NCBI GenBank assembly: GCA_009602725.1
Contig: WELB01000037.1
Span: 369,078 to 406,684 of the forward strand
Length of the DNA stretch: 37,607 bases
Source: Spirogloea muscicola
Taxonomy: Eukaryota > Streptophyta > Zygnematophyceae > Spirogloeales > Spirogloeaceae
Direction: 5' to 3'
The notes under the pieces are model-generated. The model searched no databases, was not told where the DNA came from, and was given only the letters and a program-made list of their open reading frames with translations. Position numbers and translations under genes: made by a program. Shown piece by piece: positions 7,901 to 33,304 of this stretch. Numbering within the stretch: the stretch's first letter is position 1; every line of letters begins with the position of its first letter.

Positions 7901-10900
7901 GATCGCACTGAAGTAAACATGAGAATTTTCATGCGTGAAGTAAACATGGAAAAGTTCATGAGTAGATTGTGTGTACAAGCTGCTGTAAGACATCATAAGA
8001 AAGGATCACATGTTACTACCACGTTGTCAAGGTGCTCTGCTGACCTGGAAGAGACGTGCATATACATGAAGCTTGTTGCGCCAAGTGTTCAAAAATTGAC
8101 GGCGAGTCAACAATCTAACCTCATACCAGAAGTCGTGAACATACTCTCTGTTATATTGTCCTACTCCATACATTGTATCTTGCTGCAACAGAACGACTTA
8201 CTGGTGGGATAACTAAGCACGTCCATCTAGCAATACCTGCTCAAATCGTCCTAAAGCTGGGTTGCTTAGTATCACAACACCCATTAGCTTGGAAGCATGA
8301 TTGCCTTGTGCAAATCTACCGTGGTATGCTGAGAGATAGTTGTCATTAATCTTGTGTTGGTCACTGAATGTGACACGTGAGCAACAGTCCTGAAATACCT
8401 CTACGAAGGGCCGCTCAAGCTGCAGTCTGACAGGACAAGCTGCCAGTTCCAGAGCCCCCGCCACAGCTTGTGCTTCGTGCCCCACCACGTATGCCAGTCT
8501 GTTGACCACATCCAGCAAGGGCTTGTCTAAGCCGGCTTTGCCACAGTGCTTCGGTCCTACAAAATCCTTGAGCAATTCAAGACAATGCTAAGAAAGGGTC
8601 CCCATGGAAAGCAAGCAGAACGACCTGTTGTTGGTGCTGGAGACAGCTACAACTCTGTCCCCTTCCTTCACTCGCCCGCTGTTCTGTATGGCGGGCTTGC
8701 TGAGCGGCTGCCCTTCAATGACCTTCTTAACAGTGGCAAATCCAGCTGCGTTATTGGCCAACTCAATTCCAGGGGGCTTGGATGCCTGCACCGTAATTGC
8801 CAAGTCAGCATTTTACTGGTTAGAAACTGCAACTTCAGCTGCAGGGCTTCTTGAGCAGACATACTAGGATCGCAAGTAAGCTTCTAGATGCCGTTAGAGA
8901 TGACAAAAATCTCCTGATCTCATTAAATCTCAAAAGCAGAAGTGGGAGCAGGCACGCTTTCTGAGTGAGGAGCACGTCATGGGCTGCTGACCTGGACCCA
9001 GTAGTTCAAGTGCAGCTCAGGGCTTTCAACAATACGCAGGGTGTCCTTGTAGAGGTCTGAGTTCTGGTAAGCCTGTACAAAGCCGTCAAAATCGAGACGC
9101 TGTGCACCTGGTTGAAGAAACCGCCAGCCTTCCTCTGTGGTAACATCCACCAGGAACTCCGGTGCACAGACATGCAGTGGTTTGATGTACCTGTAGTACC
9201 ACCTCATTATGACATGGGCTCAGCAAGAAGGTACTTCCAAGTAAGTGCTCTTCAACCACACTTGGTTCAATATTCTGCCTAAGAGAGCATATAAATTCGT
9301 CTCATTATGTACACGTGACAACCTGACGGTCACAATGCTCAGGCTTTGAGGCTTCAGTTGCTGAAGGCTAGTGCATAGGGTTATGCGCCTTCTGTTCAGA
9401 GTCCGAGCAGGGCAAGCCACAGGGGCACAGACCATTGACGACGACCCCTGCCGAGCAGACAACAAGAGTCCTGTTCCTACCCAAGATCTTCAAAGTAAGG
9501 CAGTGCATCCGCCTGTGGCCCAAAGTACAAGATGTGGCCGTGGTCCATGAGGAGTACTTGGTCGAAGAGGTTGTACGTGGCAACAGATGGTTGCAGCAGC
9601 GAAACAACACAGGACACCCCACGCACCCTGCTGAATATCTTCATGTTCTCGACCAGGTCGCGAGTAACTGAAGCGTCAACTCCTGCAATGCAACTGAACC
9701 ACTTGTTTCATATTTTAACTCGACGCAGGCGCAAATTCCTTTTGGACCACCATGGCTTAAGGTATTGGCACACTGGTGTTACTCCTGGTCGCACCTGGCC
9801 AACCACCGGGTTTTGCTGTGCCGGGTCAATGCGCGCCAGCGCAAAATTCAAGTAGCAAACACTACTGCTGTGGCTGACTGCCAAATGCGTGAGCACCAAG
9901 CCAGCCCAGAGAAGCCTACCTTTATTGAGCTCATCAAAGTAATATACAGCATACGTTCCAGCGACCATCTCCGCCACAGTGACGCGGTGCCTTTCGCCAG
10001 CAGTCAGTGTTGGCATCTTCTCGCTGCCCACAGGGCGGCTCTGGAGGCGCTTCAGGCCCATCATGTGCAGGTTCATTTCTAGCTTCGGGTCCTGGCCCAG
10101 CTTCAGCGCCTCCTCTGCAATGGCCTGAGGGCAATTGCTGCAAAGACTTTTAGATGGCCAGGATCGACTGTGGGCTCCTTGCCAGCTTGGTAATAAGCGC
10201 GCCTCTTGGTATTGTTCATCAATCTGAGGTCTGAGGTCTCCAATGACAGTCGGCCCAATCCACGCCCTTGGTGTAAGGAGCAACTGGAGCATGTGGCAAA
10301 ATAGTGGCAATATTGCTCATAATTTGCACACCTTCAGCTCAGGACCAAAGTCCTTATACGTCCACGCCAGCGTGGAATCGCGGGAGAACTCCATAGTCTC
10401 CTTCACCGTGAGAAAGGGCTGGTGATTGTCCTGCGCAGCAATGCACGCCGCCAGCCTCTCCACAATCACCTCCCGTACGGGCTTGTGATTGTATAGAACA
10501 GAGCCTGACAGGCCTGGTGAATCCTTGATCCTCCCTGTCAAGATTCTCAGAAGCGTGCTCTTTCCACAACCTGGCGAGCCTGCAAGCGCTCGTAGTAAAG
10601 CCTGGTTATTGGCAAGGGACTCTGCTTTGCTAGGACACACTGCTTATGTGCTGGAGGTTTTTCACAAGACATGGTTGGGCTCACAAGGTTACGCAACTGT
10701 AATTGCAATGTACTTACAGCATCATCTCACTGTATCCTGCCATTAAGGTCACGATAGGAGCACAGCAACCAGAATCTACCAGTGATCTGTAGAGTAGTCA
10801 TCTGACATCAGCCACCTGTCAAACCTAGATCATTTGTGATGAGCGCAAAAGCATGCCAAGCAAGCCAAGGCTGTACCTAAGATGAGTGTCATGGACCCTG

Positions 10901-17934: not shown

Positions 17935-18175
17935 AATATCACAGCCATCGCCCACTTTGGAAGCGCTTCTTCCTCTCCATGCCATCTACATTGTACATAC
18001 CCCCTTGTAGGTGATATTGAGCGGCCACTTGAGTGGATGTAGCTCTTCTTGCCCCTTGTTTGCTCGTTCTTTTCTGGGCTGGCAATCACAGCCATCGCCC
18101 TTCACTATGAAGTATTTTCACTATGTACATTCCTTTGGGCTGGCCTCTCACAGCCATTGCCTTACAATGCAAGAG
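17935..18175 (-). repeat. Three hairpin-repeat units between ARF1 and the TOG gene
   Basis: Three minus-oriented copies: about 17,938-17,975 (CACAGCCATCGCCCACTTTG), 18,060-18,115 (GTTCTTTTCTGGGCTGGC, then ATCACAGCCATCGCCC) and 18,120-18,175 (CCTTTGGGCTGGCCTCTCAC, then AGCCATTGCC). The spacing and flanks match the 424-970 cluster. They lie in the divergent promoter region of two genes. Confidence 0.65.
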
Positions 18176-18314
18176 CCTTCGCTTCGTGACATCAATCGTG
18201 ACAAGATATCACGGAACGAGGAAGGCAGAAGTTGGACAAGAACCTGCGTACGAATCCACACCGTTGGGCTGTCGAGCTGCCACTACATGTTGCCCACCTC
18301 CGAGACCAGCCACG

Positions 18315-32170: not shown

Positions 32171-33304
32171 TCAATAACCACGGGTCAAAACATAAAGGTC
32201 ACTACTCGATGCATGAATACTAGATGCCAGGAACGGAGCCCTTCTGCCACCTACTAGAGCTCGCCCAGCTTTCTGGTGCAAGGCACTAGCCTGAGCACGC
32301 TGCAAACAGGCCGAAACTCGACGTCGCAAGAGCGACAGATATGCAGCTGGCAAGCCCATCTCAGCCGGAAACACATCTGCGCGTCGAGTGTAGCCTAGAT
32401 TGGCAATGTTTTGAAGCAGAGTGTGGAAGCGAGGACCCAGACAGCCAAAGATGTCGATTGCAGCTGGCAGGAGTTGATCGCATTGGGGGTAATCGGAGTA
32501 ATGCCGCAGTTTTCTTTGCTCTGCTCCGCCCACTGCGTGCCCAGCAATGTGTGTTGATGCTGGGCCTTTATATGCCTCCGTAACAACAACGTCGACCAGG
32601 GCCCGTGGTCCTCCACCAGGTTGCACGCCCACAATGTCAAGTGTGCGGCGATGATGACGTCCCTGGGCGTCCGTGGTGATAGGCATGATATTGTTGACTT
32701 CCACGACCGCACGGTAGCCGGCGTCGCGCATCAAGCCCGCCAGGGCATCGCGAAGGAGGTTGTGAATGCCCACCACTTCTGGTCCAGTGGGGCATCTCAG
32801 CATGTGAGTGGCGAGCACAGCACCCTCTGCACGGTAGCCGCACTCGCACTGGCGCACCCCAATCAGGCAATTAGGTGGGAGGCCGAGGAAGAGTTGAAGC
32901 GATGTCCAAAAGGCCTCGGAGCTGATGCTGAAGGCGTTGGCGACGGGCGGAGAGGAGATCCAGTCAGTGGCACCAGGTGTGGCCAGAGAAGTGAGTCTTG
33001 CCAAGCTCCTTGGATTGTTCTGAATCTCTGGCAGCCTCCTCAACCTTCTGCGGCTATCGTCTTCCACTGCCGTAACCAGTCTGGATTGTGCCCCTCTATC
33101 AGAAGCTTGGGCGAGGGCAGAGAATGGCGTGAGTAGGGGTTGGAGAGAGGGAAAAGAGCTGATGGCTGAGTCGCGCATGCTCCTCAGATCCACTTGGAAG
33201 GGGAGGGGGCCTTCCTCCACATTGCGTACAGGGTCGTGGAGGCAAGGTGAAAGGGGCTGGCAAGAGAAGAGGGCTGGCAAAGCCAGCCCAAAAAGAATGG
33301 ACAA
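32171..33304 (-). CDS. Carboxy-terminal part of a LINE ORF2: zinc knuckle and restriction-like endonuclease (5'-truncated element)
   Basis: 377 codons. Residues about 30-377 resemble the end of non-LTR retrotransposon proteins with a restriction-like endonuclease (RandI/Dualen or R2-like types). A zinc knuckle lies at C153-x-C155-x11-H167-x3-C171. The PD-(D/E)XK-like core is TLDIVGV (D223), ALVDVVVTE (D238) and AEQRKLRHY (K265). The end is SLLRRRVSACLQRAQ, then DLYVLTRGY-stop. No reverse transcriptase domain precedes it. The first 25 or so residues come from a hairpin repeat (about 33,270-33,300) on the other strand, so the element is broken there and the ATG is fortuitous. The frame is otherwise undamaged, suggesting recent insertion. 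The family is known to nick target DNA for reverse transcription; this copy alone cannot move. Confidence 0.8.
   Translation of the reverse strand: MSILFGLALPALFSCQPLSPCLHDPVRNVEEGPLPFQVDLRSMRDSAISSFPSLQPLLTPFSALAQASDRGAQSRLVTAVEDDSRRRLRRLPEIQNNPRSLARLTSLATPGATDWISSPPVANAFSISSEAFWTSLQLFLGLPPNCLIGVRQCECGYRAEGAVLATHMLRCPTGPEVVGIHNLLRDALAGLMRDAGYRAVVEVNNIMPITTDAQGRHHRRTLDIVGVQPGGGPRALVDVVVTEAYKGPASTHIAGHAVGGAEQRKLRHYSDYPQCDQLLPAAIDIFGCLGPRFHTLLQNIANLGYTRRADVFPAEMGLPAAYLSLLRRRVSACLQRAQASALHQKAGRALVGGRRAPFLASSIHASSSDLYVLTRGY

Follow-up and report, generated by a model that had tools for sequence, protein, structure and literature searches.

A full-size ABCG transporter gene of Spirogloea muscicola with a probable PDZ-type domain between NBD1 and TMD1, present in two subfamilies

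The window, by which we mean the whole 37,607-nucleotide stretch of Spirogloea muscicola DNA analysed here, lies on contig C37 of the 153-Mb source assembly in which the genome searches were conducted. This assembly contains 68 matches to chlorophyll a/b-binding proteins at E-values up to 0.001, in keeping with a photosynthetic eukaryote and probably a green alga. On its minus strand, it carries a gene for a full-size ABCG/PDR transporter, which runs from NBD1 to the stop codon over 11.0 to 2.0 kb. The gene model starts at NBD1; its second half (NBD2 and TMD2) was located through motifs and matches, and is spliced only in part. The first half is read from nine exons. Exon 1 (10991-10877; spliced reading and Pfam ABC_tran) encodes the start of NBD1 (VTGLLGG...MTLILG), exon 2 (10579-10332; motif, spliced reading and Pfam) its Walker A motif (GSPGCGKST), exon 3 (10124-9920) its signature (LTAGERHRV) and Walker B motif (YYFDE), and exon 4 (9682-9481) its D-loop and switch region (SLLQPS), the last two being assigned from motifs and the spliced reading. 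Exon 5 (9190-8992) contains the end of NBD1, after which the PDZ-type domain begins with its first strand (...LHLNYWVQ), as judged from the copies compared and the spliced reading. The remainder of the domain is divided between exon PDZ-a (8785-8625; ASKPPGIEL...GRVKEGDRVVAVSSTNN(R)), placed by comparison of the copies and by fold prediction, and exon PDZ-b (8498-8399; (R)LAYVVGHEAQAVAGALELAACPVRLQLERPFVE), placed by an upstream TGA in the close copies and by an uninterrupted homolog. TMD1 then begins in exon 8 (8182-8045; QDTMYGVGQYNREYVHDFWYEVRLLTRRQF...; copies compared, spliced reading and Pfam) and continues in exon 9 (7863-7609; ABC2_membrane; spliced reading and Pfam), which ends at the likely GC donor (GAG/GCAAGT, 7609/7608) of a GC-AG intron. 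Together, these exons give a stop-free reading of 541 residues in one continuous frame, comprising NBD1, the linker and TMD1; Pfam recognizes ABC_tran (7.8e-17, residues 23-186) and ABC2_membrane (3.9e-19) within it, and leaves the linker blank at E-values up to 0.1.

Downstream, and on the same strand, motifs reveal the Walker A region of NBD2 (5829-5668; GASGAGKST), an altered signature (SGPSSVAAESSKRL) with the Walker B motif (4951-4751; LFLDEP) and a switch region (4556-4404) in which TASDIPS replaces TIHQPS. These are followed by TMD2 (3678-3376; Pfam ABC2_membrane match at C37:372453-372755) and by the last coding stretch found (2148-1996), which reads ...LRYLRHNRQT and then stop. The presence of NBD2 and TMD2 completes the NBD-TMD-NBD-TMD order of a full-size ABCG/PDR transporter within one gene. 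Elsewhere in the window, there is a short dispersed repeat (approximately 18020-18193) with matches on many contigs of the assembly, and a 377-codon open frame on the minus strand (32171-33304), which has a C-x-C...H...C pattern and, on visual inspection, resembles the terminal part of a retroelement reverse transcriptase.

A sequence-only reading of this DNA had described a PDZ-like segment in the transporter (a GIEL loop, GRVKEGDRVVAV and VRLQLERPF), and the minus strand does indeed carry the coding sequence for this segment, which lies between NBD1 and TMD1 and is in frame with both. It occurs in six copies of the gene, which divide equally between two subfamilies. Subfamily A consists of the window gene and its close copies on contigs C21 (L001) and C7 (L002), which are, respectively, 89.9 and 88.9% identical to it over 3.2 kb. 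Subfamily B consists of three diverged genes, C140 (L003), C157 (L005) and C13b (L006), which carry the domain at the equivalent place, in linkers that share 31-32% identity with that of the window. The three B copies align with one another and have the same spliced protein layout as subfamily A, with introns at other sites; using tblastn, the C140 linker is recovered as a single unbroken stretch from LTEADIQ to LERPLEQ, spanning the second PDZ intron of subfamily A. The K, P and G of a KPxG motif, GDRV and PVRLQLERP are invariant in all six copies, and the dN/dS ratios for the domain lie at 0.16-0.23 in subfamily A (three of three pairs) and 0.09-0.38 in subfamily B (three pairs), such that all six pairs fall within 0.09-0.38. 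Retention in the close copies and in a diverged subfamily, taken with the fold predicted for the window, indicates that the PDZ-like segment is more than a chance resemblance. As a separate observation, several PDR genes of this assembly occur in threes, and the genome appears to be either triplicated or represented by three diverged haplotypes; the window flank itself has two syntenic copies, with 79-91% identity by piece (C37:384077-393077, C7:57079-66069 and C21:117389-126572).

The exon borders around the domain required revision. Of the exons initially proposed, 8992-9190 is retained in the corrected model; the next two, which had been drawn as 8645-8785 and 8377-8566, are correct at the 8785 end and wrong at three places. 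The first of these closes at 8625 instead of 8645 (donor AACAG/GTCGTT), the second becomes 8498-8399 (acceptor GTCAACAG/ACTGG, donor GTAGAG/GTATTT), and the onward splice to TMD1 joins 8399 to 8182, replacing 8377/8145. Consequently, the "GLDKPLLDVVNRL" helix (8566-8499), which had been counted among the PDZ motifs, is not protein: this stretch is intronic, and, in C21 as well as in C7, the frame of the former third exon hits a TGA at the position where the window has TTA. The corrected phase-2 junction, AACAACAG/GTCGTT with GTCAACAG/ACTGG, leaves all three close copies open. Among these three, the 8566-8499 stretch is 82.4-86.8% identical, as compared with 90.0-95.0% for the two PDZ exons, 97.5-98.5% for the preceding exon, 87.9-92.1% for the intron at 8398-8183 and 91.3-96.4% for the first TMD1 exon; since the measured introns themselves range from 83.3 to 92.1%, identity alone is a weak guide to exon borders. 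The splice is instead fixed by subfamily B, because it reads intronless across the disputed junction, and the nine residues that it has between GDRV and LAY are exactly the spacing produced by the corrected splice of subfamily A. In alignments to subfamily B, the corrected splice attains z 18.2 and the earlier splice z 9.3, the sequence behind the latter value lacking the first four residues.

It might still be argued that the earlier exon model is correct and that the close copies are pseudogenes: the earlier third exon is an open frame in the window itself, and, given an equal start, its product resembles the solved PDZ domain of LSF1 (PDB code: 8j5d_D) nearly as well. Thus, with the residues YWVQ included, the window aligns to LSF1 at z 5.6 (0/2000 shuffles) in the corrected splice and z 4.8 (4/2000) in the earlier one, and, without them, at z 3.3 (24/2000) and z 2.6 (48/2000), respectively. 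Against this stand the TGA in both close copies, the exact agreement in spacing with the uninterrupted homolog and the alignment scores above, and we regard the pseudogene explanation as scarcely credible. The similarity to LSF1 is no proof of the corrected splice, as from equal starts it hardly separates the two; an apparently decisive comparison (54/2000 shuffles for the earlier splice and 0/2000 for the corrected one) involved unequal starts, the former sequence being without its first four residues. The corrected splice, which is a prediction, is thus supported by the TGA codons of the close copies and by the unbroken reading of subfamily B, and not by LSF1.

The sequence-only reading had proposed a Pfam search as a check on the PDZ assignment, with the absence of a match as a refuting outcome, and this came out negative: none of the six linkers contains a PDZ domain above the cut-off, the earlier and corrected splices alike give no match, and NCBIfam yields only weak matches below its cut-off. 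A search of the genome with the Pfam models PF00595 and PF17820 lists other places, but not these linkers. For a domain of the LSF1 kind, however, this silence is uninformative, since the solved LSF1 PDZ domain itself scores 14.9 bits with the Pfam PDZ model, where the cut-off is 23.2; a second solved chain, 9iiu_G, passes at 27.9 bits. Direct comparison with these two structures is more revealing. Subfamily B aligns to the LSF1 PDZ domain at z 11.0 (0/2000 shuffles) and to 9iiu_G at z 10.2 (0/2000); for C7, the corresponding values are 6.0 (1/2000) and 4.1 (2/2000), and the window reaches z 4.5 (4/2000) with 9iiu_G. Homology to a solved PDZ domain is, therefore, found through LSF1, albeit more weakly for the window when its first four residues are removed. 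Moreover, a profile of the six sequences scores LSF1 at 16.5 bits and 9iiu_G at 14.8 bits, and the best of 10,000 shuffled copies at 10.7 bits.

Searches of the PDB gave a more mixed picture. With the C7 linker, phmmer returned seven weak matches (E 0.19-1.4), all of them chains of PDZ-domain proteins, some of which we assign to that class from the name; with subfamily B, it returned no PDZ domain and two unrelated matches. A joint profile produced 19 matches, namely 11 to HtrA, two to spike, two to FapR, three to the PDLIM2 PDZ domain and one to LSF1, the last covering profile positions 5-95 (E 0.27); the best stretch in the 11 HtrA chains lies, we presume, in the protease part and outside the PDZ domain, such that 15 of the 19 matches are apparently not to a PDZ domain. 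Overall, on the basis of sequence comparison, we consider the similarity to LSF1 to be strong for subfamily B and modest for subfamily A, and LSF1 to provide good evidence for a PDZ domain in subfamily B and, via subfamily B, in the window linker. The assembly also contains a separate plant-type PDZ exon (L015, C11:862035-862166; TYEVELEKPLGIKF...PGDKVLA, KPLGIKF), which matches the LSF1 PDZ domain with an E-value of 0.014.

Structure prediction, the other check proposed, gave a PDZ fold for the window domain, in a model that is of low confidence and includes an unspliced intron. The AlphaFold input was the contiguous stretch 8806-8399, in which the 126-base intron was kept and its one stop entered as Q, and the alignment comprised eight other rows; in the resulting model (mean pLDDT 54.4, pTM 0.51), strands at residues 2-8, 14-18, 24-29 and 51-57 are followed by a helix at 112-121 and a strand at 126-132. 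The PDZ topology, with helix αB preceding the last strand, is thus present, at low pLDDT and with the retained intron contributing two extra helices (pLDDT below 50). The modelled first strand is partly intron-coded (8806-8786) and stands where the true strand, LHLNYWVQ from the exon before, would be. Foldseek found 464 matches to this model at E-values up to 10, none of them at 0.001 or less. The best 50 of the 464 have probabilities of 0.93-1.00; PDZ is named in the titles of 48 of them, and we take the remaining two, neurabin and PSD-93, to be PDZ proteins. When 926 chains chosen by Foldseek were compared using VIA-align, 422 scored Z 8 or more; 48 of the best 50 of these have titles that name PDZ, the others being GIPC1 and PSD-95, and the best alignment covers 81 residues (Z 10.4, rmsd 2.3). 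The model for the subfamily B reading showed no PDZ fold (pTM 0.25, with PDZ matches at probability 0.28 or less); in it, a retained hydrophobic intron is folded as a long helix.

Could the insertion be an unrelated β-rich linker whose motifs resemble those of PDZ domains by chance? The silence of Pfam, the subfamily B model without a PDZ fold, the weak E-values throughout the phmmer and joint-profile searches, and the dependence of the window-LSF1 match on a few starting residues would all be compatible with this. Chance is, nevertheless, difficult to reconcile with the absence of a single comparable shuffle in 2000 for subfamily B against either LSF1 or 9iiu_G, with a profile that ranks both structures above all 10,000 shuffled copies, and with the PDZ domains retrieved for the window model in two structure comparisons, and we judge this explanation to be improbable. 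Rather, a PDZ fold at the NBD1-TMD1 junction is very probably present. Of the original proposal, that a PDZ domain is built into a full-size ABCG/PDR transporter, the core is supported by the diverged subfamily, the homology and the predicted fold, whereas its exon borders and one of its four motifs are wrong; once these are corrected, the finding stands, with the PDZ-type domain occurring in full-size ABCG pumps of two subfamilies, each with three copies.

Canonical transporters of the same genome offer a comparison. For 15 PDR loci, all stop-to-stop frames of at least 15 residues on the strand of the gene were searched with the six-linker profile: it recovered the domain in its six source loci, where the main exons have E-values from 1.2e-34 to 3.2e-08, and gave nothing better than E 13 in nine canonical loci (C65, C25, C207, C165, C87, C13a, C60, C41 and C213), for each of which the entire NBD1-TMD1 linker lies, by coordinates, inside the searched stretch. 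Chance matches to the profile outside the linker of the A loci reach E 0.09, and the linkers of C65 and C87 are, by eye, of the plant type. When the linker alignment was used as the query, no relative could be confirmed in a prokaryotic genome collection (0/68 pattern stretches) or among viral contigs (0/43). The eukaryotic scope of the architecture search was the S. muscicola assembly alone.

The two subfamilies differ in the switch region of NBD2. Both NBDs of the window gene have Walker A and B motifs. In subfamily A, however, the NBD1 signature is altered (TAGER), and NBD2 combines TASDIPS for TIHQPS with an altered signature in all three copies; subfamily B retains TIHQPS in all three of its copies. 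From these motifs, it is possible that subfamily A has a regulatory rather than a bulk-transport role.

This divergence bears on whether the domain binds anything at all, as the PDZ fold might simply serve as a structural spacer that stiffens or lengthens the NBD1-TMD1 linker. The altered NBD2 of subfamily A would fit such a reading, in that a functional drift of the protein is possible, as would the putative peptide site: the candidate carboxylate loop is non-canonical (GIEL, GAQF or GANF in place of GLGF), and the likely αB histidine, placed by judgement, varies, being H in the window and C21 and R in C7. A passive spacer sits less well with the residues of KPxG, GDRV and PVRLQLERP that are invariant across both subfamilies, or with the low dN/dS ratios in all six pairs, and we think it rather unlikely. 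We favour a domain that binds.

What would it bind? The linkers between NBD1 and TMD1 of ABCG transporters are cytosolic, and the PDZ domain would, therefore, be located at the cytosolic, membrane-near face of the pump. There, it would bind a partner in trans, either through a C-terminal tail or through an internal motif of that partner, thereby docking the pump within a patch or complex. The domain may, in addition, bias the coupling of NBD1 to TMD1. We consider it probable that the window encodes a pump of the order NBD1-PDZ-TMD1-NBD2-TMD2, whose PDZ domain is of the plant or plastid kind (KPxG...GD...LERP) and docks a partner in trans; that such docking is the main job of the domain is an evenly balanced proposition. 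Scaffolding or clustering through the PDZ domain, as suggested by the sequence-only reading, is possible. The same reading had raised autoregulation by the C-terminal peptide of the transporter, which we do not favour. The usual ligands of PDZ domains have a hydrophobic last residue, whereas the tails here end in RHNRQT (all three A copies) or RYNRR (all three B copies). The position of the domain, between NBD1 and TMD1 and near the coupling region, would suit a wider form of this idea, in which the domain regulates the pump itself via its own tail or another internal segment; given those same tails, we rate it as distinctly unlikely. Trans docking is preferred. A bolder extension, which we put forward tentatively and think unlikely, is that these genes represent a distinct algal ABCG class in which the plant-type PDZ domain is a built-in receptor between NBD1 and TMD1 and, with the degenerate NBD2 of subfamily A, the binding of a peptide or partner gates transport in place of a second active ATP site.

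As far as our searches reach, a PDZ domain within an ABCG pump is a new combination of known parts. By title and the start of the abstract, no report of a PDZ domain in the ABCG/PDR architecture was found in the open-licence literature; the term 'PDZ' is absent from the main text of PMC9164057 and of PMC13257379, and 'ABC transporter' from PMC6411480. Because Pfam misses the plant-type PDZ domain, other algae may contain this architecture without its having been annotated. With a PDZ domain of its own at the coupling junction, such a pump would provide a direct handle on the control of the ABCG cycle by partners.

In its NBD-TMD-NBD-TMD order and its ABC_tran and ABC2_membrane domains, the window gene corresponds to the full-size ABCG (PDR) transporters known from plants and fungi; it is set apart by the extra domain of approximately 90 residues, placed between NBD1 and TMD1, and, for subfamily A, by the altered NBD1 signature, NBD2 signature and switch region. 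One account describes the NBD1-TMD1 linkers of full-size ABCG transporters as mostly ordered (PMC13257379). The PDZ domain of LSF1 aligns over the whole of the domain (KPLG..F, GD, S..G and LERP), most clearly with subfamily B. In LSF1, the domain belongs to a protein annotated as a chloroplastic phosphoglucan phosphatase, whereas in the window gene it forms part of a membrane transporter; the PDZ and interaction domains of LSF1 are described in PMC12892837 as forming with MDH a platform for BAM1. Chain G of 9iiu, a 'PDZ domain-containing protein' that is not named as a transporter, begins with KPLGFKFA and aligns overall with subfamily B. Among ABC transporters, CFTR and other ABCC members are clustered or regulated through PDZ contacts of the NHERF type. 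In those systems, the ligand tail belongs to the transporter and the PDZ domain to a separate scaffold, whereas in S. muscicola the PDZ domain is in the transporter itself.
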